A stretch of DNA of 64,000 bases from positions 2,294,001 through 2,358,000 of the forward strand of contig NZ_CP033219.1 in the NCBI RefSeq assembly GCF_004006175.1. Reading direction: 5' to 3'. Positions 40,802 to 56,834 of this stretch are shown here, in pieces (the stretch's first letter is position 1; the number at the start of each line of letters is the position of its first letter). The DNA comes from Parasedimentitalea marina (lineage in GTDB: Bacteria > Pseudomonadota > Alphaproteobacteria > Rhodobacterales > Rhodobacteraceae). The position numbers and the translations under genes were made by a program. Below the pieces are notes generated by a model. It had not been told where the DNA came from. It was given only the letters and a program-made list of their open reading frames with translations, and ran no database searches.

Positions 40802-43800
40802 TCAAAACGGATCTGAAAACACAGTATAGTTTTCGTCGGACGCAAGCTTTTCCAGTGCCAGCTCTCGTGCAACCTGTGCCGCTGAATCAAAAAAGCATTC
40901 CTGTGATACAGCGGTGAACTCTCTCAGTTCATCAAGTTCCATCAGGGCCTCACGATATAGACGCCTTCTAATCATCGCTTCTGCGATCCAAACCTGCATG
41001 TAGGGGCGCGCCAAAACCATGTTTGCCTGTCGGTACTCAGACATAGCCTCCTGAAGCGCCTCTAGTGCGCCTGGATCACCCATTAGATCGGCCACGCGTG
41101 CCAATTGCATTTTGGACTGTGCGATCCATTGTTTGAACTGCATCTCCTGGGCGCCCTTAAGGCCGATTTCAGCCAGCCGTCGCGCTTCTTTTAGCTGACC
41201 AAGGAACAGGCATTTGGTCGCGGAAAAAACATGTGCAAAAACATGACTGAGCCCATTTTTGTTTCGCTTCGCCCGATCCAAAGCACGCTGCGATGCGGCA
41301 GCTGCATTATTGGTTTGCCCCTGAAGCGCGTAAACCCACGCAAGAAAGCTATCAGCGGTAAGTCTGATATCCATTCCAAAGCGGTTGAGCAAATCATCGG
41401 TCATAGATTGGTTATCATAGCCACCAACATTCTCAAGGTGCTCTGAAGCCAGATTGAGCGTCCCACGATAGGCATGGGTAACGCCCAGCATATAGTCGAC
41501 AATCAATCGTGCCACTGGTGAGGCTTGCCAATCCAAGCCCTCCTCCGCAGCAGTCACAATATTCAGACAGTCGTCCAGTTCGGCGACCATCAAGTGAATA
41601 CTCCAAAGCCCCCAAGCAGCATTCACAGCTTCTTCCTGATCCGCAAGTTCACGGCTAAGTTCATTCGCAATAGTGTAAAACGGGGTGGCTTCGCTGGTTG
41701 GGATGCCATGCAAGCCAATGATCTGGGCTGCGATTTTTCGGTTCAGCAGCAGTTCTTTGTACATGCGATCCCGCGACAAGGGTAAATGCCCGATCATCGC
41801 AAGTGCATCGGAGTATTCAAAAATGGCCTCTGCGTGAGCAGAGACACGACCTGCTTGATCTCCAGAGCGTTCAAAAAAATGCCCCGCATCTTTATGCGCA
41901 TTCGCAGCCCGGTAATGGCGCGCCACTTTGCCGTCATTCACAGGCATTTCATCGCTATTCAACGCCAGTGCCGCAGACTTGTGCAGGATGGAACGGCTGC
42001 GCATAGGAATTGTCGAATAGATCGCCTCATTGATCAAAGCGTGTTTGAAGATATAGGTAGTGTCGCGTCCACGGTTCGTCGCAAAAATAATTCCAGCGGC
42101 TTCAAGCTCGTTAAACAAAGACGACAGAATGGCGACTGGGTGCAGGATCTTGGAGAGCTGACTAAGCGAGAAGCGCCGCCCCAGTATCGACGCGTGCTGT
42201 AAGACTCGCACCGCGCCAGGAATGATATCTATACGAGACAAAAGAAGTGGTGAAAGCCGATCCGGGGTGCCTATCACCTCTTCTCCACTGATCGGGTCCA
42301 CAATGGAATTGTCAACCTCACCCAAGACGCTTCGTTTGCTGCGAGCTTCCGCTGCTTTTGCAAACTCTTCGAGAAACAGTGGATTGCCTTCGGCCCGTTC
42401 CAGAATGTTGGACAGCGTAGCTGTGGAAACCTGCGTGTCTTTGAGTAACCCGCGCAGCAATGCTTCTGCACTTTGAACATCAAGTGGCGAAAGGGTTATA
42501 TTTTGAACCAATGGGTGCCCCAAAACCTCTGGAAATTCCCCATCACGCGCAACCAACAGTACACAAACGCAAGACCTACCTAGGGCTTCGATTAATCGCC
42601 CTATTGCCTCGCAAGTTGTCGGATCAAACCAGTGAATGTCTTCAAAAACCATCAGAACTGGCTGCTGCACAGTGGCGAGACCCGCATGCGTAGCAAAAAA
42701 GTCCAACGCCCTTTCCTTGACTGATTTGGGTATTGGTGCTCCGTTCGTTGCCGTCCTAGTAGAATTGCCCGTGAGAGACGCAAAATAGTCGGCCGCCATT
42801 GAGAGTTCCGGGTCCACATTCGACAGCCACTGCTCCAGTCTATGCGCCACAGGCATATTTTCCGGATTTCCGAATGCGCCTGCGCGTTGCATGTAGTCGA
42901 TGACCGGCGCGAGCGTTGACTGCTTTTCATTCATGTTGCCATGAAAGTATTTGATGTCGAACCCTTGGTCACGGGCGACAACTGCAACTTCTTCAACCAG
43001 TCTCGATTTACCGGTCCCCGGAGCTCCAGTAATTGCAACAGCACTCCCTACGGCTGATTTGGTCAGCGTCAGATTGCCCAATATCTGCGCCAATTGTGCT
43101 TCGCGCCCAACCATCACATGGCTTTTGCCTTGTGACAGATCCCAAGGCTGGCCATTCTTTGGCAAATGGTTTGCAATGGCCTCCTGAACACCGTCAACGC
43201 CGTCAACGCCGTCAACGCCGTCAACTTCCTTGAGCCGGATCGCAGGTGACAACAAGCTCTTTACCGCGGTGCTGACATAGACGGCCCCTGGCGGTGCGGC
43301 GCGCGCCAGATCCTCGGCGTCCCGCTGAACGGCACCGGACACTTTGAAGTCAGAATGGCCTGTCTGGTCATCAATAGAAACCAGCGCCAGTCCAGCTGAT
43401 ATGCCAATCCGGCAGGTCGAATATCTTGCGGGTTCCTTACCCATGGCAAGACCGATATCGAAAGCTGCACCAACCGCCGCATCTGCGATCTTGTCATGTG
43501 TGGTTGGATACCCGAAACAGGCGTGAATGCGGTCATTTCCCAAGTGTAGTTGGACGCCACCGCGGGCTTGGATGATCTGATTAGTAAGTGCGGCTAAATC
43601 CTTCGCGATCTGTTCATACTCTTCCGGATCTTCACTGCGATTATCCGCAAGAACCGATAGAATAAGGACAAATCGCCTTTGTTGCGCTGGGAAAGCTTGC
43701 TCTTCAGGTCTAGATGGGCGGATAATTTGGCGGCGCGGCTCAATGGATTTTTTTTCCAGCGTTGCCGCCAAACGCCTTGTTTCAAAAGAGGGCTCTGTAT

Positions 43801-44476
43801 CCAGATGTGTTTTCAGCGCAACCTCACATTGTCGCATCTGATGCTTGGCAAGATGAAAATCACCTTGTTTGACGTAATACTCAACAAGCCCGCAGTGCGC
43901 TGGCTCATATGTCGGATCAATCCTGCAGAGATGTTGTGCGATCTCGGTCAGGTTATCTGCAAAGCCAGCGTCAGCCCATTGAGCCATCAGGGTATCGCCA
44001 AACCTCAACGCCCTCGCTTCTTGCGTTTGGCGTGTTGCCCAGACCCAATCGGAAAAGGGTTGGCTACGAATTCGAAAAGTATCCAGAAATGGGGCGGTGT
44101 ACAGTGCGAGCAGTTCTTTTCGCCCATCACGTGATACAGTTTCGCTATCGATCTCGTTAAAGCACCACAGGTCGACCACTGCGTCACCTTCAGAAAAACC
44201 GATCCGATCACCTTCAGAAAAAATACTGGCAACATTGTCAGCGCCAAGCGCTTTGCGCACCACCGAGATCTCTTGCCTTAGGCTTGCACGCGCCTGATCA
44301 GGGCCGCTATACGGCCACAATAGGTCGGCCAATGTCTCTCGGGAAAGTGCTTTGCCTCTTTGCTCGACCAAATAGGCCAACAGAGCTTCGGATTTCCGGG
44401 TCGGAAATTGTAACAACTGACCTGTGTCATTGATGACGACTGGTCCGCCAAAAAGCTTTATCTGAAGCGCCATCAC
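40802..44476 (-). CDS. Large BTAD/SARP-type transcriptional regulator with cyclase-like, AAA ATPase and TPR domains
   Basis: 1224 residues. Residues 1-85 form an OmpR-type winged helix (LFGGPVVINDTGQLLQFPTRKSEALLAYLVEQRGKALSRETLADLLWP), and about 95-240 a bacterial transcriptional activation domain. About 270-430 resemble a class III nucleotide cyclase but lack an obvious catalytic metal pair, so it is probably inactive. An AAA/STAND ATPase follows with Walker A ITGAPGTGKSRLVEEV and Walker B VLMVFEDIHWFD. The C-terminal 450 residues are helical repeats. A VDG tandem tract joins the cyclase and ATPase regions. It is divergent from the transglutaminase gene and could activate it. Confidence 0.88.
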   Translation of the reverse strand: MMALQIKLFGGPVVINDTGQLLQFPTRKSEALLAYLVEQRGKALSRETLADLLWPYSGPDQARASLRQEISVVRKALGADNVASIFSEGDRIGFSEGDAVVDLWCFNEIDSETVSRDGRKELLALYTAPFLDTFRIRSQPFSDWVWATRQTQEARALRFGDTLMAQWADAGFADNLTEIAQHLCRIDPTYEPAHCGLVEYYVKQGDFHLAKHQMRQCEVALKTHLDTEPSFETRRLAATLEKKSIEPRRQIIRPSRPEEQAFPAQQRRFVLILSVLADNRSEDPEEYEQIAKDLAALTNQIIQARGGVQLHLGNDRIHACFGYPTTHDKIADAAVGAAFDIGLAMGKEPARYSTCRIGISAGLALVSIDDQTGHSDFKVSGAVQRDAEDLARAAPPGAVYVSTAVKSLLSPAIRLKEVDGVDGVDGVDGVQEAIANHLPKNGQPWDLSQGKSHVMVGREAQLAQILGNLTLTKSAVGSAVAITGAPGTGKSRLVEEVAVVARDQGFDIKYFHGNMNEKQSTLAPVIDYMQRAGAFGNPENMPVAHRLEQWLSNVDPELSMAADYFASLTGNSTRTATNGAPIPKSVKERALDFFATHAGLATVQQPVLMVFEDIHWFDPTTCEAIGRLIEALGRSCVCVLLVARDGEFPEVLGHPLVQNITLSPLDVQSAEALLRGLLKDTQVSTATLSNILERAEGNPLFLEEFAKAAEARSKRSVLGEVDNSIVDPISGEEVIGTPDRLSPLLLSRIDIIPGAVRVLQHASILGRRFSLSQLSKILHPVAILSSLFNELEAAGIIFATNRGRDTTYIFKHALINEAIYSTIPMRSRSILHKSAALALNSDEMPVNDGKVARHYRAANAHKDAGHFFERSGDQAGRVSAHAEAIFEYSDALAMIGHLPLSRDRMYKELLLNRKIAAQIIGLHGIPTSEATPFYTIANELSRELADQEEAVNAAWGLWSIHLMVAELDDCLNIVTAAEEGLDWQASPVARLIVDYMLGVTHAYRGTLNLASEHLENVGGYDNQSMTDDLLNRFGMDIRLTADSFLAWVYALQGQTNNAAAASQRALDRAKRNKNGLSHVFAHVFSATKCLFLGQLKEARRLAEIGLKGAQEMQFKQWIAQSKMQLARVADLMGDPGALEALQEAMSEYRQANMVLARPYMQVWIAEAMIRRRLYREALMELDELREFTAVSQECFFDSAAQVARELALEKLASDENYTVFSDPF
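43191..43225. repeat. Nine-base tandem repeat inside the BTAD regulator gene
   Basis: Four copies of CCGTCAACG (the last lacks its final base) encode the VDGVDGVDGVDG linker on the minus strand. As the unit is a multiple of three, slippage would change linker length without breaking the frame. Confidence 0.8.
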
Positions 44477-46170: not shown

Positions 46171-46529
46171 ATATAACTATTCGATCCGAACTCTCGCCAA
46201 TTGAATACCTCGAGCGACAAAAATTGGCCAAATCAAGCAAGCTCAGCACGAAGGTATTATTAGACTTGTAGGACATCCGAGCATGTCTAGACGACTAAAT
46301 GCTATCAAAGGAGTGGCATCAAACCGCGACAGGTCCAACATCCCGCATCGGTACAGCCTGGCGCGGCATATGAGCCACGAAACGGATTTCGGTTTTCGTG
46401 GCGTCTGCAAGGGTGTGCAAGCGACACCAACAAAGCAGACAATCAGATCACTTCTAAACAGGCCCGCTCCCAGTTGCCCCAGGCAGGCGATTTTGTTGAC
46501 AACGCCATAGCGAAATTATGGATCAAACC
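46171..46529. other. Intergenic region
   Basis: A 75-codon frame (46283-46510, plus strand, AGGA nine bases upstream) is the only candidate. Its sequence is basic and low in hydrophobic residues and I do not accept it as a gene without comparative support. Nothing else is visible. Confidence 0.35.
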
Positions 46530-47186
46530 CTACGCAATATTCACTGGATCCCAAGGGTTGTCGCGAAACCAGAAAGTGATAATCCGTTTGTTTCCTTTCG
46601 TCACTGGGCACCCTTGATGCATGCTGAGGGTATGCACTGTGGCGGCTCCCGGCTTGGTGTTTTGCCAAAATGCCAGTCTTCCAAGTTTTGGCTGCAATTC
46701 AACATCTAGCCGCGGAAAACGTGTTGTGCCGCCAGAGAAATCCTGGTTCAGATACAACACGCCGGTGAATACTCTTTGACTAGACGCCGTATTATCCGTT
46801 CTGCGACTAGGCATTGAGCCAGACAATGCCGCATCAAAATGCCGTTGAAACTCTCCCCCTTCTTGATAGGAGATGAATTCAGGGTATTCACAAAGGTTGT
46901 TCTTTAGCCTGAAAAGGCGCGCTATTTTGTCAGTGACGTCCTCAACCACGGGAATCGTTCCAGGCCGTATCTTATAGTTTTCCGCTGTCCTGTTTTCCGA
47001 AACGACTGCGCCAGTTGAGCTTGCGACGGCTGCGGATTGAAGGTCAACGGCTTTAAGCGCTGCTTCAATCTCTACAATGGTTTTTTGTGGCACGAAGTTA
47101 TCGATACATCCAACCAGCGGGTTAACGCTATAGAGCTGTGATTCACGAAGAATTTCTTGATACAACGTTTCCGCCGAGTGCCTCAC
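46530..47186 (-). CDS. 2-oxoglutarate/Fe(II) dioxygenase of the prolyl-4-hydroxylase type
   Basis: 218 residues from GTG 47186; the frame stays open to an ATG at 47291, which lacks a ribosome-binding site. The P4Hc core is complete: EFISYQEGGEFQRHFDAA gives H116 and D118, RVFTGVLYLNQDFSGGTTRFP the central strands, and VHTLSMHQGCPVTKGNKRIITFWF the distal H190 and the 2-oxoglutarate-binding K200. It would hydroxylate a prolyl or other side chain, in a peptide or a small molecule. It lies downstream, on the same strand, of a 36-codon frame with a proline-rich tail. The GTG start overlaps the TGA of another tiny frame (GTGA). Confidence 0.87.
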   Translation of the reverse strand: MRHSAETLYQEILRESQLYSVNPLVGCIDNFVPQKTIVEIEAALKAVDLQSAAVASSTGAVVSENRTAENYKIRPGTIPVVEDVTDKIARLFRLKNNLCEYPEFISYQEGGEFQRHFDAALSGSMPSRRTDNTASSQRVFTGVLYLNQDFSGGTTRFPRLDVELQPKLGRLAFWQNTKPGAATVHTLSMHQGCPVTKGNKRIITFWFRDNPWDPVNIA

Positions 47187-47315
47187 GATGTCATGACTCC
47201 CATTTCCTTTGTCACAAGCCGACAGGGGCCGAAGATATTGTGGACAATTTCGGATGTGTAATTTGACATTGCGGCAACTACGGGACTGCATGCTTTCAAG
47301 AGAAATACGCAGCCC

Positions 47316-47408: not shown

Positions 47409-47519
47409 TTAGTCCGACGAACTGGATGGCGCTACGGGCTCCGGGGGCATGCCGATTTTTGCGGTGCGCGCAGCCGCAGAACCCTTTAGTAGAAGCAGTT
47501 TTGAAGTTTCGATTTTCAT
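47409..47519 (-). CDS. Candidate RiPP precursor peptide (36 residues)
   Basis: The frame runs from ATG 47519 to TAA 47409, with AAAGGG six bases before the start (a second in-frame ATG at 47525 abuts that site and would add two residues). The peptide opens MKIETSKLLLLKG, passes through an Ala/Arg/Lys region, and ends MPPEPVAPSSSSD. A charged amphipathic leader and a compact Pro/Ser-rich tail are typical of ribosomal peptide precursors. The next accepted gene on the same strand is a prolyl-4-hydroxylase-type dioxygenase, which could act on the PPEPVAP prolines. It is on the opposite strand to the thioesterase-like gene, sharing a promoter gap of about 63 bases. Supported by position, ribosome-binding site and composition only. 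Confidence 0.5.
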   Translation of the reverse strand: MKIETSKLLLLKGSAAARTAKIGMPPEPVAPSSSSD

Positions 47520-47588
47520 TTGCATCCCTTTCTAAAAATTGGAATTGTGCCAGTACAATATAATGCACGGTAGGAGCCGCAAACTATA

Positions 47589-48302
47589 ATGTCCAGCTTG
47601 GATCCGACCCTTGCCCAACAAAAGCTGATGTCATCCTGGAACGGGCGGGCGATCGATGATCGTGGCATACTCAGAACCCTAAATGAAGGTGGGTCTCGAC
47701 CGCCGCTGTTGTGGATATTTAACTCAGCAGAAGAACCGGTACGTTTTGCAAAAGCCTTAGGCGATGACCAACCTTTAATCTTTTCCCGCTCTTCGCACTT
47801 ACTTGTTCCACCAGACGATGACCCGACAGAAGTCAGAAATATCCTGACGGAGTATCTGTTTGGAGAACTCAAAAAGCAGTTTCCTGGTAGTCATTTTGAT
47901 ATGGGTACAAGTTGCCAGGGAAGCGGTATTGTTATGAAACTCAGCAATAGGCTTCGTGAGGCCGACATCAGTGTCGGGCACCTTTGCATCGTCAATTGCT
48001 CGTTACCCCAAATCGATACGAATCTTCCGGCGCTTTTAGTCTATGGGGACGAAGACGAGGGGCACAATCCTTTTCAAAGAGATTCTGGCGCTGCCGAAAC
48101 GCGCGCAAAAATGGTTTTTTCAAAGTATCGAAAGTTGGTGCTGAAAACCAGACACGGCCAATACTACCTGCCGGAAAACGCGAAAGAAATAATCGCTCAG
48201 TTTGATTTATTCAGATCACAGCCCCCCCCGGCAATGCTTCAATGGCGGCGGCTAGCTCTTCTACTGTTGGGTGGTACAAAAGCTTGGAGGGGGGGATATT
48301 GA
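47589..48302 (+). CDS. Thioesterase-like alpha/beta-hydrolase-fold protein
   Basis: 237 residues. The pattern is that of a free-standing NRPS/PKS thioesterase domain: RPPLLWIFNSAEEPVRFAKALGDDQPLIFSRSS at the N-terminus, a nucleophile-elbow position reading DMGTSCQGSGIVM, LPALLVYGDEDEG, and a late His in LKTRHGQYYLPENAKEIIAQF. The elbow deviates from GxSxGG, so the catalytic residue is uncertain. The last 30 codons run across the antiparallel carrier-protein gene, next to a run of eight C at about 48223-48230; natural 3' overlap or a length change in that run could explain it. It probably releases a thioester from the neighbouring carrier protein. Confidence 0.62.
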   Translation: MSSLDPTLAQQKLMSSWNGRAIDDRGILRTLNEGGSRPPLLWIFNSAEEPVRFAKALGDDQPLIFSRSSHLLVPPDDDPTEVRNILTEYLFGELKKQFPGSHFDMGTSCQGSGIVMKLSNRLREADISVGHLCIVNCSLPQIDTNLPALLVYGDEDEGHNPFQRDSGAAETRAKMVFSKYRKLVLKTRHGQYYLPENAKEIIAQFDLFRSQPPPAMLQWRRLALLLLGGTKAWRGGY

Positions 48303-48459
48303 AACCCATCTTGACCTCAAGGGATGCGCAAAGACTCACAAGCGTTAAGGAATCTCCCCCAAGGTCGAAAAAATCGCTTTCAAGGTCAATTGCATCATCG
48401 GGGAAGCATTCTTGAAAGGCTCTGGTTACCTGTTGCGAAATACTATCAGAAGTCGACAA
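48211..48459 (-). CDS. Acyl/peptidyl carrier protein
   Basis: 82 residues with the phosphopantetheine site DLGGDSLTLVSL (Ser 37), preceded by the helix FQECFPDDAIDLESDFF and followed by LLYHPTVEELAAAIEAL, the standard four-helix carrier fold. The GGDS form is commoner in peptidyl carrier proteins of NRPS systems. Its start overlaps the end of the adenylation gene. No phosphopantetheinyl transferase is in the window. Its partner should be the adjacent adenylation protein, with the antiparallel thioesterase-like protein for release. Confidence 0.92.
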   Translation of the reverse strand: MSTSDSISQQVTRAFQECFPDDAIDLESDFFDLGGDSLTLVSLCASLEVKMGFNIPPSKLLYHPTVEELAAAIEALPGGAVI

Positions 48460-49905
48460 ATTGGGTTTCCTCTTCTATTGCCATGTTCTTTACAGTACGC
48501 AGTGCAATCTTGTTCGAAGAGTTGCGCGGCAAATGCGAACAAATCATAATTCTATCTGGTCGACGATAAGATGCCAAAGAAGATTTCATTTGTTTTTTTG
48601 CCCGATCTAAGTCGATCTTGGTCTCGACAGCCAAGAAAATCATGTCATCCGGAGAACCATCCGCCTGAACCGCAAACGCAATGCAATCCCTGACACCCAT
48701 TATTCGCTTCACATCAAATTCCAAGTCCAAAAGGTTCACATTGATCGAATTGCGACAGGCGGTTTGTTCTGACCGCCCTTGGATGAATAAATACCCGTCT
48801 TCGTCAATCCAACCATAGTCACCCGTGTCGATTGGCGCAGCACCATCTTTCCAATTTGGCTTGGCGACGATGCGCCCGATCTGGCCGATTGGGCATAATC
48901 CACTGGTTTCATCCTCAATACGAATTGTAACTTCCGAGAACGGTTTTCCAACCGAGTTAGGCTTTTCAAGAACCTCATCTCCGGACAGGATAGACACTGC
49001 ACCCACGCCAGACATCGAATACATGTTTTTCACACCAGGTGTGAGCATCCGATAGGCTTGCACCAGCTTATCAGGTGAAATTGGCCCCCCCAGCGATGCC
49101 ATTCGTGTAATATGCGGATAGGCAGGCCCATCCTGAGCTGCGGTGTTTTCCTTATGAAATTCAAGCAAATCTGTGATCAAAACAGGAGGCAATCCGACAG
49201 ATTGGATGTCTGATCTGGTAAGGGCTTGATGCAGTTCCTGAACCCCGAATATCAATGGCAGACTAAGTAAAAACTTGCCGTTGATCAAAAGTTTGATCCA
49301 GTGGGACAACACGGCACCAAAGGCAAGACTTCCGACACTTACCGCCGACAGCGGAATTTGATTGTTCAATAGTTGCCCTGATGCCCAGAGCCCTTCCAGA
49401 AACGCCTGATGAGTCACCCGTCGAAACCGCGGAAATCCCGTTGTGCCTGATGATGACAAGATCAGCGCATCACAGTGCTGAGATCCGGACGAGAAATGCA
49501 GGCCCATAGCGCATTTCATTGTGGAGTCTCTTGCTGGAATAAGGTCGAACCCCCCTCTTCGAGCGAAGCTTTTTGAGTCTGTAAAGACAGAGTCGAGGCC
49601 GACCTTCTCTTTTACGGTTTGGATTTCCCCTATCGGCTGCCTTGGATCAAGTAAAAGAACTGCAGCATCCAGAGACCACAGTGCGATCATGGCTTCCAAC
49701 GCCCTAAGACGGTCAACGGCTACAATTGCAACCGAAGCGCCGGCAGTGACACGGTGACCTTTGAAAAAATCGACAAGCACCGCAGCAGAATTGATGACCT
49801 CTGCGCGTGAATGGCATATTCCGTCTTGCTCGACGCAGGGCGCGTCGGGATCGGATATAGCCAAGTCCGCAATAAGGGAGCCGATGTTACGTTCTTCAAA
49901 TGGCA
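48446..49905 (-). CDS. Stand-alone adenylation (AMP-binding) protein
   Basis: 485 residues from ATG 49905, overlapping the HExxH gene by ten bases. ANL-superfamily motifs are in order: A3 ALILSSSGTTGFPRFRRVTH, A5-like KNMYSMSGVGAVSILSG, A7/A8 DTGDYGWIDEDGYLFIQGRSEQTACRNSINVNLLDLE, and A10 LPRNSSNKIALRTV with the adenylation lysine. It activates a carboxylate as the AMP ester and would load it onto the carrier protein encoded immediately downstream. The signature region is not one I can read for a substrate. The C-terminal subdomain is shortish but complete. Confidence 0.87.
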
Positions 49906-50888
49906 TGGATAGTTTCTCGTGCGTTTTCAAACAGTTCGAGGCCGAAATCCGACAGTTCACCATGTTCAGCAACAGTCTGTTCACAGTCCCGAAACGCTTC
50001 AAGTGCGCGCGCTTGATGCTCAAGCAAATCTTGCGCCCAGGTTGGTCTACTGGGGGACTTCAACACCGTCTCAGCCGCAAGAACCATACGGGCCGAAACC
50101 CACAATGCATGGAAAATACCTTCCATTGGGCGTGGCTGCGCACGCAGCGGAGACGAAAAAGTTGCGCTTGCATCGTTCAGTAAAACTGGGTCGTCGAGAT
50201 GAAACAGGAACATTTGCTGATGTGAGCTTTCGTGAATTAACGCCATCAGCACAGTAGCAGGATCCCGGAACGCCAGCGGGTTCATCAAGACCGCGCCAAA
50301 GGCATCAAAGACTGCCGCCCCCCCGAACAGAAGCTCTCCTTCTGACTCGGCCACAGCAAAATAAACTTGATTTGCTAGCAACAGCAGCTCCTCCATCCAA
50401 GGTCTCGCACCAAGGTCGAGTGCATTGATCGCCTCGCTCACCAAGGCTGTGGCGCGCTCGACCTCTGGCGACGGCGGCGCCATCAAGCTTGTCGTCAAAC
50501 CTATGTCATCCGCAAATGCTGATTTCAGAAGAAAAACTTCGTCCTGGTGCATGCTGTTGCTTGAAAGTGGCGTGACGTTGATCGTGCCTGTCTCTTCAGT
50601 ATCCCGGAGCCTTTGATCTTTCAGAATTCGAAAAAGCTCGGGAACATCTGACGTATGAGCGTTGATTGCTGCATTGAGCAAGGATCCATGAAGGGCGAAT
50701 ATCGCCGGTTTCGGAAAATTCGACCCACCCAATATCATACCTTTAAGTTCCTGTTCTGAAACCGGTGGGCTGAACTTTGTGGCCAAAACATCATATATCA
50801 GGTGGTGGAGTGACTCAAATAACTTCAATCGTATTCGGTGTCTGGTTGCCGCGACAAATGTAACGTTTGGAAAGAGATAGTTTTGCAT
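49896..50888 (-). CDS. HExxH-motif peptide beta-hydroxylase-like protein
   Basis: 330 residues from ATG 50888 (a TTG at 50903 is possible). The core ATVLMALIHESSHQQMFLFHLDDPVLLNDASATFSSPLRAQPRPMEGIFHALW holds HExxH (H219-H223), DDP, PLRxxPRPMEGIxH and a third His (H260). This is the pattern of the 'HEXXH motif putative peptide modification' family (TIGR04267 from memory), more recently described as 2-oxoglutarate-dependent peptide beta-hydroxylases in RiPP clusters. Here it is translationally coupled to an adenylation protein and carrier protein, an unusual setting: the substrate may be a peptide or a carrier-bound amino acid. The family match is strong; substrate inference is open. Confidence 0.8.
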   Translation of the reverse strand: MQNYLFPNVTFVAATRHRIRLKLFESLHHLIYDVLATKFSPPVSEQELKGMILGGSNFPKPAIFALHGSLLNAAINAHTSDVPELFRILKDQRLRDTEETGTINVTPLSSNSMHQDEVFLLKSAFADDIGLTTSLMAPPSPEVERATALVSEAINALDLGARPWMEELLLLANQVYFAVAESEGELLFGGAAVFDAFGAVLMNPLAFRDPATVLMALIHESSHQQMFLFHLDDPVLLNDASATFSSPLRAQPRPMEGIFHALWVSARMVLAAETVLKSPSRPTWAQDLLEHQARALEAFRDCEQTVAEHGELSDFGLELFENARETIHAI

Positions 50889-50918
50889 CGGGCCACAACT
50901 CAATTTTCATAAAACACT

Positions 50919-51332
50919 TCACCCAGATGCAAGCGTGGCGCTCAATTTGTCAACTCTGGGCGCCATCGGATCCCAAGAAGTCATCTGGTCAGATACACTC
51001 CAAGCCTTCGTCCTTTGTAAAACAATTATAGCATTGTTTAAGGGACGGTTTTCAACACACCTCAGTGTTGTTTTGACCGGCTGTAAAACGGTATCGTAAT
51101 TTCTGCGCAGTGTACCATTGGCCGTGACGCGGCTCTCGAGCCACTGGTGAACGGTCGCAAAGGGCCGTTCGCTTCTTATCAGGGCGAGCCGTGGCCAGAC
51201 TTTGCAAAGGTCGCATTCTGCGCATTGCTGCCGTCGAAGAGTACCTAAGTGAAGATCCAGAACCCGACCCGCGACACTTGTAAGTAAAGCAGTGATGCCC
51301 AGTCTTAAAGTGTTGCGTCGAGTCATAGTCAT
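50919..51332 (-). CDS. Possible Tat-exported small protein upstream of the HExxH gene
   Basis: 137 residues opening MTMTRRNTLRLGITALLTSVAG, a good twin-arginine signal (TRRNTLRLG plus a hydrophobic run). CAECDLC follows, then a polar region (FATVHQWLESRVTANGTLRRNY). It ends 30 bases before the HExxH gene on the same strand and might be its first operon partner. The ribosome-binding site is weak and the C-terminal half does not resemble any family I know, so a decayed gene is possible. Confidence 0.35.
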   Translation of the reverse strand: MTMTRRNTLRLGITALLTSVAGRVLDLHLGTLRRQQCAECDLCKVWPRLALIRSERPFATVHQWLESRVTANGTLRRNYDTVLQPVKTTLRCVENRPLNNAIIVLQRTKAWSVSDQMTSWDPMAPRVDKLSATLASG

Positions 51333-51577
51333 TCGATTTACTTATTCCACTGCAGGTTAGTTCAATGGAGCGTTTCTCGGCAGTAAACTGAACCGCTTGA
51401 TGCCGCACTTTCTTGCTAGCAGACCATCGCCGCAACGCAGTATTAGTGCAAGAAAGGGCTCGTTCCTGCCTTTCGCTGCGGTCAGATCCAAATGGGGATT
51501 ATGGGCAGATTGCGGGCTTTGCAAACTCCGTCGTTCTTCTCGAAAGCTGACGTTAGTGTGACGGCCCATAGAAACAT
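51333..51577. other. Region without a supported gene
   Basis: Open frames on the minus strand here have the low-hydrophobic, Arg/Ser-rich composition of non-coding DNA. The stretch recalls degenerate intergenic repeats of roseobacter genomes, but I cannot define a unit. Confidence 0.3.
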
Positions 51578-55346: not shown

Positions 55347-56807
55347 TCAGATTGCTCTGCGTATGCTGCGCAAAACATACTTGGTCGCTCCGAGTTTCCC
55401 GTTCTTTGGATAGGTCGATATGCGAACACGGTTGTTTTGGTTGCCACCCAGCACAGACACACTGTCCCCCCTATCAGCGACCAGAAACCCAACATGCCCT
55501 CCTTTGCCAACGCGCTCAAAGACAACGATATCGCCTTCTTGCGGGTCGTTTTCAGCTGACTGGCCCCAGTCTTCCCAGGACAGCGCCCTCTGGCTATCTG
55601 TTCCCACCATGCCTGATTGTTCGACACAGTAGTTCACGAAGGATGAACACCAAGCGACACTATCATCGGTTCCAGACCAAGGGTTCGTTGATTTGTGGTA
55701 CATCACAACCCGTGGATTGTTGCCAGGTCCAGCAACCTCGCGCACGTCGAGGGCAAGTTCGGCCTGAGCAACGCTATAGGGTACGGTTGCTCCTGCTGCA
55801 GTCGCAGGAGCCGCAGCGGTTGCTGTCGAGCCCGGAGCCGAAGGCCAAGTTGGCCATTTGGGCCATGTGGGCCAATTCCCAGCAGTGTTCCCATTTGCTG
55901 AGCTCAGTAACGGCAGGCCGCCGGAAACGGGCTTCAGGTAGCCACTGTGAAGGTATCCATCCGACAATCCGTCACTGTTCACGTCGACATTTGCCCAATC
56001 TCCTGATGTGCTGACAACCTGAACAATTTGCCCCTGCGCTAATGTGGAGTCGACACCATAATTGGTTCCAGGGCCGCGCCGCAAGTTCAAGCCTGACCGC
56101 GCCGTGACTTCCATCAGCGCAAATTGAAAAGACCCAGCATCATCGCGCCAGTCTACGGGCGCAGACGCCGCAGCGCCACCTGGAGTGAATTGACCAAAGT
56201 CGCCCCAAGCTGGGGACAGTTCATTGCCATCATGCCGCAATACTGCTGTTTGCTCTGGATAAGTTTGGCGTAAGGTCCAGGCGTCCGTGGCCAAAAGCGC
56301 TTTTGTTCCGCTCCAGCCCACCGACATTGACAGCCAGATAAAGTCAACCAAACCGGCACTCTTCAATGTCTTGCCAACCAAACCAGAGCCATAGACGCCA
56401 ACACGGTAGTCCGCCCCTAAAACCCTGCGCACTTCGGCAAAGTACTCCGAAATGGATTTGAGGTCTGTTGGGCGGAAGTAATCCCAATCTACAGCAAAGT
56501 AAATTGCAGAGCCTATGGGTTGGCCAATCTGTGTTGCCTGTTTTACCGCACGTGTAGCATCTGCATTGCCGCTTTTCGCATTCAGATCGTTTATGTTCCC
56601 GCCAGAACCACCGCGTTGCTGGTAGACTACGGCGAGTGTCATTCCAGCATCAGCAATAGCTGCCGCTTCGGCTGGCTCGAGTCGCTTCTCGGGTAGCTGA
56701 TTTGAATTGGCGCGATTAAAATACCGAATGATTGTTTCGACGCCACGTGCGCGAAGCTCGTCGAGATTTGATGTTACCCGCCAAGGGGTGTCGATGATTT
56801 TATGCAT
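55347..56807 (-). CDS. Cell-wall hydrolase-like protein: DUF1906, SH3 and CHAP/NlpC-like domains
   Basis: 486 residues from ATG 56807. Residues 1-200 match the DUF1906 glycoside-hydrolase-like (Rv2525c-type) barrel: RARGVETIIRYFNRANSNQLPEKRLEPAEAAAIADAGMTLAVVYQQRGG and AIYFAVDWDY. About 225-300 form a bacterial SH3 (ARSGLNLRRGPGTNYGVDSTLAQGQIVQVVSTSGDWANVD). After a Pro/Trp/Ala-rich linker, about 345-486 is a CHAP/TIGR02594-type amidase domain with AWCSSFVNYCVEQSGM (Cys) and GHVGFLVAD (His). It lacks a signal peptide, as do phage endolysins, so release probably needs the nearby holin-like protein or lysis. Confidence 0.83.
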   Translation of the reverse strand: MHKIIDTPWRVTSNLDELRARGVETIIRYFNRANSNQLPEKRLEPAEAAAIADAGMTLAVVYQQRGGSGGNINDLNAKSGNADATRAVKQATQIGQPIGSAIYFAVDWDYFRPTDLKSISEYFAEVRRVLGADYRVGVYGSGLVGKTLKSAGLVDFIWLSMSVGWSGTKALLATDAWTLRQTYPEQTAVLRHDGNELSPAWGDFGQFTPGGAAASAPVDWRDDAGSFQFALMEVTARSGLNLRRGPGTNYGVDSTLAQGQIVQVVSTSGDWANVDVNSDGLSDGYLHSGYLKPVSGGLPLLSSANGNTAGNWPTWPKWPTWPSAPGSTATAAAPATAAGATVPYSVAQAELALDVREVAGPGNNPRVVMYHKSTNPWSGTDDSVAWCSSFVNYCVEQSGMVGTDSQRALSWEDWGQSAENDPQEGDIVVFERVGKGGHVGFLVADRGDSVSVLGGNQNNRVRISTYPKNGKLGATKYVLRSIRRAI

Positions 56808-56834
56808 GACGTCCTCCACTTAATAGTCTGAAAA

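Follow-up and report, generated by a model that had tools for sequence, protein, structure and literature searches.

An HExxH-type hydroxylase, adenylation, carrier and thioesterase-like gene cassette with a short conserved peptide in Parasedimentitalea marina: a candidate route to a modified ribosomal peptide

In the biosynthesis of nosiheptide an indolic acid is reported to be loaded by NosI onto the carrier NosJ and removed from it by NosK (PMC5585349), which transfers the acid to Cys8 of the core peptide (PMC11406533); fused carrier-hydrolase versions (NocK, PerK) have been reported. Here we describe a comparable gene set in a 64,000-nucleotide stretch of the genome of Parasedimentitalea marina (Rhodobacteraceae; assembly GCF_004006175.1, contig NZ_CP033219.1, positions 2,294,001 to 2,358,000), hereafter the window, whose numbering is used throughout. 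As in NosI/NosJ/NosK, a stand-alone adenylating enzyme (A), a peptidyl/acyl carrier protein (PCP) and an alpha/beta-hydrolase-like protein, here a thioesterase-like protein (TE), would serve a ribosomal peptide, the acid is predicted from the sequence to carry no alpha-amine, and a fused form (A-PCP-TE) exists in a related locus, L082. Unlike in nosiheptide, the cassette shows no thiopeptide enzymes, the proposed transfer is assigned to a thioesterase of the Cys type whose likeness to NosK is one of fold and gene set, the partner oxygenase is an alpha-ketoglutarate (aKG)-HExxH enzyme, the precursor belongs to a new family with an LDxxKLL leader, and sister clusters contain an ATP-grasp-like counterpart.

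Enzymes of the aKG-HExxH family are reported as peptide beta-hydroxylases in the context of ribosomally synthesized and post-translationally modified peptides (RiPPs) (PMC12636437, PMC12257519, PMC12707348, PMC13060819). According to the same sources, the characterised members use peptide substrates (PMC12636437, PMC13060819) and hydroxylate His, Asp, Phe, Gln or Pro within them (PMC13060819), and PflC/PosC cleave the backbone as well (PMC12636437). The enzyme of the window shares its family model, motif and fold with ChlH, BpmH/BipH, PflC/PosC and PesO, is free-standing and not fused to a radical SAM domain, and differs from them in being paired with A, PCP and TE, a pairing not described for the known enzymes in the accessible parts of the literature cited.

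The systems of CmaE and SyrC are reported to combine an A protein and a carrier with a non-haem iron oxygenase and a shuttle enzyme (PMC8748450), as does the cassette. Unlike them, it encodes no multidomain nonribosomal peptide synthetase (NRPS), its likely acceptor is a ribosomal peptide and its A protein lacks the amino acid-binding Asp. Aminoacyltransferases of the CmaE/SyrC type use a Cys nucleophile. Selidamides, lipolanthines and goadvionins are reported as GNAT-acylated RiPPs, with the acyl group of selidamides on Lys or Orn side chains (PMC13060382); acylation of a ribosomal peptide is proposed here too, with A/PCP/TE instead of a GNAT enzyme, and a Pfam scan of the cassette proteins found neither a GNAT acyltransferase nor a lanthipeptide synthetase. 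Graspetides are matched by the sister clusters in the pairing of an ATP-grasp-like protein with a small precursor, and none of four ATP-grasp queries found such a protein in the window at E 1e-3. A combination of A/PCP/TE with an aKG-HExxH enzyme, or precursors of this kind, were not found described among the papers listed by a literature search with subscription journals mostly outside its scope. The parts and their logic have precedents; the new points are the peptide family and the exchange of the ligase.

Gene set and its counterparts in other genomes

A first-pass annotation made from the sequence alone had proposed five genes, for an HExxH protein, A, PCP, TE and a prolyl-4-hydroxylase-type Fe/2OG dioxygenase (P4H), and both the genes and their order are borne out by the gene coordinates and by family matches in Pfam and NCBIfam (mod_HExxH, AMP-binding, PP-binding and 2OG-FeII_Oxy_3). 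The minus-strand overlaps that it noted are real: the gene of the HExxH protein (49896..50888, ATG start, 330 aa) shares 11 bases with that of A (48446..49906, ATG start; PF00501, 79.1 bits), which shares 14 bases with that of PCP (48211..48459, TTG start; PF00550, 57.4 bits). The TE gene (47589..48302, plus strand) indeed converges on the PCP gene, with an overlap of 92 bases (48211-48302). A tail-to-tail overlap of PCP and TE is also seen in loci of the same gene order, despite a TE C-terminus that is otherwise poorly conserved. The 36-residue peptide (MKIETSKLLLLKGSAAARTAKIGMPPEPVAPSSSSD) is encoded by the 36-codon open reading frame (ORF) 47519-47409 on the minus strand (47409..47519), upstream of which AGAAAGGG is found. 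The upper limit of the interval proposed for the cluster, 47409..51332, extends over ORF 51332-50919, which does not belong to the cluster; it has no Pfam or NCBIfam match and no relative in other loci and overlaps a dispersed repeat at approximately 51149-51269.

The HExxH protein (HESSH, with the motif SPLR..RPMEGIFHA) matches the mod_HExxH model TIGR04267 with 78.5 bits against a cut-off of 40 and has the fold of ChlH; the unrelated metalloprotease family that had been considered as an alternative placement was not recovered. Residues H219, E220 and H223 are invariant across 36 aligned relatives (38 were found, of which the two weakest were excluded), and Fe(II)/aKG-dependent peptide hydroxylation is predicted for the protein.

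A genome collection with one genome per species, queried with the 36-sequence HExxH alignment, yielded 19 loci. Regarding 15 of these (L020-L033 and L037, including Shimia, Tateyamaria, Cognatiyoonia, Pseudophaeobacter, Rhodobacter and Gemmobacter), A lies beside the HExxH gene and matches to PCP and TE are present in every case, so that the arrangement is far from chance, and an HExxH gene that never co-occurs with A and PCP, the outcome that would have spoken against the cluster, was not what the scan found. The remaining four loci are L034, L035, L036 and L038. Two further loci from genomes of the order (L087, L088) bring the distinct A/PCP/TE loci to 18, the window included. Three gene orders occur. 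The first is that of the window, with TE convergent; in L030 and L032 PCP and TE are each turned round; and in L033, L037 and L087 a single strand encodes TE, peptide, HExxH, A and PCP.

Clustering of all frames of at least 60 aa in L020-L038 and the window gave only three recurring families beyond the cassette genes and the frames overlapping them, namely P4H, ATPases of ABC transporters (five loci, mixed types, 1 to 6 kb away and in no fixed place) and the ATP-grasp proteins of L034, L035 and L038. The search for the five-gene neighbourhood thus recovered HExxH, A, PCP and TE together in 18 loci but P4H in only five of them (the window and 4 of the 17 others, 47-59% identity), and relatives of P4H are absent from all 14 sister loci. 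P4H (46530..47291, minus strand; PF13640, 55.9 bits), which by sequence comes closest, among proteins of solved structure, to prolyl 4-hydroxylases, is an accessory gene.

Precursor peptides and the exchange of the HExxH partner

Two options had been put forward for the locus, hydroxylation of a ribosomal peptide with addition of an adenylated building block, or action of the HExxH enzyme on a PCP-bound amino acid by NikP1/NikQ logic. The former is now well supported, because the peptide is conserved in 17 of the 18 A/PCP/TE loci and a similar peptide accompanies related HExxH genes in loci that gave no A or PCP. The latter is weakened by those same peptides and by the loss of the alpha-amino-binding Asp from all 16 aligned A proteins.

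The 36-residue peptide is a member of a conserved family with the consensus MKLDxxKLLxLKGSAAAxxPKVG, whose relatives were sought by iterated profile (hidden Markov model, HMM) searches of small ORFs. They were found in 14 of the 15 A-containing contigs of the genome collection and in L087 and L088; the contig without one, L020, is incomplete and stops inside the TE gene. Two peptide genes are present in L021 and L030, and a tandem repeat within one ORF in L023 and L088. Across the 17 aligned peptides M1, K7, L9, L11 and K21 are invariant, Lys21 being the sole invariant nucleophilic side chain of the proposed core, and no acidic residue is invariant. The precursors that were scanned gave no Pfam or NCBIfam match. 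A conserved, encoded precursor thus lies beside modifying enzymes, as in a RiPP pathway.

Among 390 genomes of the order, 10 matched the peptide profile at E 0.01, eight of them strongly (E 1.2e-11 or better); all eight belong to the nine genomes with HExxH plus A (hypergeometric P 7e-16, for a profile itself derived from HExxH neighbourhoods). The peptide copy of the ninth genome, G062, was missed by this search and detected locally, and no peptide match was obtained from the seven other genomes with an HExxH match. The peptide motif (LDLARLFYLQGSAAARSAKIG) also forms the N-terminus of a 137-aa frame in a Celeribacter metagenome-assembled genome (L036:2287-2700), followed by repeat-domain-like sequence and near a 50-residue HExxH fragment; the frame may be a relic, or larger proteins may carry the motif as a tag too.

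Thirteen related HExxH loci (L034, L035, L038, L080, L081, L083, L085, L090, L109, L112, L141, L144 and L145) contain an ATP-grasp-like protein in place of A/PCP/TE, and in 10 of them a precursor with a similar leader and a K-x-G core was found. No ATP-grasp match occurs in any A/PCP/TE locus and no A, PCP or TE match in any ATP-grasp locus. In L080, L081, L083, L085 and L090 the peptides combine an LDxxKLLGF-type leader with a core of the K-M-G, K-V-G or K-I-G kind; each locus also encodes a 325-aa protein weakly resembling ATP-grasp. L038 (Neptuniibacter) encodes a 621-aa protein with ATP-grasp domains above the Pfam cut-off, with relatives in L034 and L035. The gene order of L038 and L141 is ATP-grasp, peptide, HExxH, and their cores (SSAASAKIG and STAASPKLG) resemble those of the window (GSAAARTAKIG) and of L027 (GSKAAAAPKVG). 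When 11 precursors chosen to represent all types are aligned, M1, K7, K21, G23 and P28 do not vary. L083 also contains six consecutive precursor-like ORFs with differing cores (L083:8733-9967), by two ATP-grasp-like genes and the HExxH gene; its genome, G229, has a third HExxH gene as well as an A/PCP/TE cassette.

In a 30-row HExxH tree the 18 A/PCP/TE rows form one side of a branch (support 100/99), and the partner type changes once, in a direction that the tree does not give. L082 (G008), in which the HExxH gene overlaps that of a fused A-PCP-TE protein (841 aa, GVCQGG), is sister to the A/PCP/TE clade (96/88, with a long-branch warning). It contains a precursor-like ORF with two core repeats, its A-PCP portion is closest to that of McyG, and it is a bridge between the locus types.

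It could be argued that the small acid or amide made by A, PCP and TE is a product of its own, without contact to the peptide, which would then be only a signal or regulator; in many loci the peptide gene indeed does not form an uninterrupted same-strand run with HExxH, A and PCP. Such a division is quite improbable given that the set is kept together in three gene orders, that every locus extending far enough, 17 in all, has the peptide, and that 10 of the 13 ATP-grasp loci, whose HExxH genes lack an A partner, still have a related one.

Adenylation, carrier and thioesterase-like proteins and the proposed pathway

In alignments, the A protein of the window retains the A10 Lys and the A7 Asp, as do all 16 aligned A proteins. 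The equivalent of Asp235, which binds the alpha-amino group, is replaced by G in the window and is absent from 16/16 (the column being G, S or P), which argues for an acid without an alpha-amine; an A domain with this Asp is what a NikP1/NikQ or SyrB-type system would require. The protein resembles enzymes activating small acids, and the best 10 of 681 records in a plasmid search were distant adenylate-forming enzymes (<26% identity). Regarding PCP, the motif DFF..GGDS is invariant in 14/14 aligned sequences, the carrier Ser (GGDSL) is retained, and two phosphopantetheinyl transferases of the ACPS superfamily are encoded in the genome. A stand-alone ANL enzyme with its A10 Lys and a carrier with an intact Ser are thus both present, as in NosI/NosJ/NosK-type systems.

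On its own, TE gave no Pfam or NCBIfam match. Comparison of its model by VIA-align assigns it a thioesterase fold, which would provide the alpha/beta-hydrolase fold expected of a transfer enzyme. Its nucleophile would be C109, with His189; the Cys and His are kept in 15/15 aligned sequences, and a Cys-TE encoded next to the carrier gene fits the role of a transacylase. The nine best TE matches among the 390 genomes are the same nine genomes that contain HExxH plus A.

From the co-occurrence of the genes, the conservation of the peptide, the folds and motifs and the exchange of partner, all observed here, we infer the reactions, the acid and the acceptor of a RiPP pathway that is favoured with moderate confidence. 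The N-terminal part of the peptide, IETSKLLLLKG (LDxxKLLxL in the family), would be the leader and AAARTAKIG (AAxxPKVG) the core, of which one residue would be hydroxylated by the aKG/Fe(II) HExxH enzyme. A would adenylate a carboxylic acid, probably not an ordinary alpha-amino acid, and load it onto PCP, from which the Cys-thioesterase would move the acyl group onto the peptide; the first candidate acceptors are the conserved Lys21 and the hydroxyl made by the HExxH enzyme. A/PCP/TE would in this way stand in for the ATP-grasp-like ligase of the sister clusters, and P4H, where present, may add a further (prolyl?) hydroxylation. The HExxH enzyme most likely acts on the peptide because a similar peptide accompanies it whichever ligase is present, and A/PCP/TE most likely joins a carboxylate to the peptide because it takes the place of an ATP-dependent ligase.

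The overlap of the HExxH, A and PCP genes and the fused A-PCP-TE beside HExxH in L082 are counted in support of this pathway, and they would also suit hydroxylation of the PCP-bound acid by the HExxH enzyme, after which the Cys-TE would hand on the hydroxylated acyl unit, whether to the peptide or to another acceptor. Carrier-bound amino acids are the substrates of SyrB2- and NikQ-type enzymes. CmaE and SyrC-like aminoacyltransferases are reported to shuttle carrier-bound units (PMC8748450). This order of events is nevertheless unlikely in view of the absent Asp235 equivalent, of the 13 related loci without an A or PCP match, 10 of which have the precursor, and of the peptide substrates reported for characterised aKG-HExxH enzymes (PMC12636437, PMC13060819).

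The exchange with an ATP-grasp-like protein may also be read in another way, A activating the C-terminal or a side-chain carboxylate of the peptide, PCP tethering it and TE releasing a cyclic or modified peptide, in replacement of a graspetide-like intramolecular ligation. TE domains can cyclise. Graspetide ATP-grasp ligases are reported to form lactam and lactone linkages (PMC8939145). Set against these points are the lack of an invariant acidic residue in the 17 peptides, sister cores such as GLKMGGKG with almost none, the unrelated peptide C-termini and the resemblance of A to enzymes activating small acids, so that intramolecular ligation is somewhat more unlikely still.

Several observations weigh against the pathway with an acyl group transferred to the peptide. 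The A5 Glu, replaced by G in the window, is lost in 14/16 A proteins, and the activity of A is therefore not certain; together with the loss of the Asp235 equivalent this would suit a non-catalytic A that, with PCP, merely scaffolds the HExxH enzyme, which is highly improbable given the A10 Lys and A7 Asp kept in 16/16, the carrier Ser in 14/14 and the Cys and His of TE in 15/15. TE relatives also occur without HExxH, and the TE family is wider than the cassette, since 68 of the 390 genomes match TE at E 1e-5, mostly weakly and in long NRPS-size frames (exception: G092, E 2e-51). The peptide C-termini vary freely, so that the limits of the core are uncertain, and neither a peptidase nor an exporter has a fixed, recurrent position by the cassette, which is unusual for an exported RiPP. 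The precursor was not found in 3 of the 13 ATP-grasp loci (L034, L035, L112), and the 325-aa family is assigned to ATP-grasp on weak grounds, with Pfam E values of 0.03 in L080 and 0.2 in L085 and no match in L081. Transfer by NosK to the unmodified precursor was reportedly not seen in vitro (PMC5585349). The leader motif was matched 15 times in 13 of 17 A loci (null mean 2.1, 20 Markov replicates) and 14 times across 8 of 11 sister loci (null mean 1.25), but the pattern had been composed after some sister precursors were seen, and two of the 14 sister matches are clearly unrelated ORFs. Three loci examined later with a slightly wider pattern all match (L141, L144, L145, the last two being close kin of L080), and L142 and L143, which lack ATP-grasp, contain no convincing leader-motif ORF.

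A wider proposal, held tentatively and rated just short of an even chance, is a RiPP class with very short precursors (leader LDxxKL[LY], core K-[VILM]-G), an aKG-HExxH hydroxylase and an interchangeable module for carboxylate activation, represented in several lineages by two families of ATP-grasp-like proteins and in one alphaproteobacterial clade by an NRPS-derived A/PCP/Cys-TE relay, with the acyl group joined to the conserved Lys or to the new hydroxyl. If true, this would be a RiPP class with precursors of approximately 30 to 80 residues, a further case, after the nosiheptide-type thiopeptides, of NRPS-style activation, carrier and transfer proteins decorating a ribosomal peptide, and, as a natural experiment, the replacement of one ligase chemistry by another on peptides of the same kind. 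As five small genes make up the whole set, direct in vitro testing is feasible.

Surroundings of the cassette and outlying loci

The G+C content of the cassette is 0.493 (window, 0.535), and short repeats that recur in its own and in same-genus genomes flank it at approximately 46296-46338 and 51149-51269; the lower G+C content and this location are consistent with horizontal gain of the cassette. No HExxH match was found in the four same-genus genomes of the sample, in which only short repeats of a 19.5-kb stretch match. The 674-base stretch 50904-51577 has 27 matches in its own genome, counting itself, and a further 38 in one genome of the same genus; most of these matches, not all, fall on the dispersed repeat at 51149-51269.

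Some HExxH loci lie outside the pattern of ligase partners. These comprise L084 (by an RTX protein), the fragment in L036, L110, L111 and L143, in which a frame read by eye as radical SAM-like is fused or adjacent to HExxH, and L113-L118 and L142, which gave no A, PCP, TE or ATP-grasp match. A Photobacterium plasmid contains an HExxH match without annotation. Distant HExxH genes near a transporter of the MFS type are present on plasmids of Pantoea (L146:5965-8076) and Xenorhabdus (L147:5629-7958), have no annotated ligase and represent a different type of system. A stand-alone TE relative is encoded in L092 (G092:C16:4000-20000), in a genome without an HExxH match.

Beside the cassette, the protein encoded at 44663-46120 matches the TGL (protein-glutamine gamma-glutamyltransferase) family of Pfam and has no counterpart among the other loci, and a 1224-aa regulator with BTAD and AAA_16 domains, which might control the cassette, is encoded at 40802-44476. 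Farther away, the protein at 39124-40497 matches the Vps62 domain (PF06101), a family named after a vacuolar sorting protein, and that at 55347-56819 combines Rv2525c-like glycoside hydrolase, SH3 and CHAP domains and resembles a cell-wall lysin.

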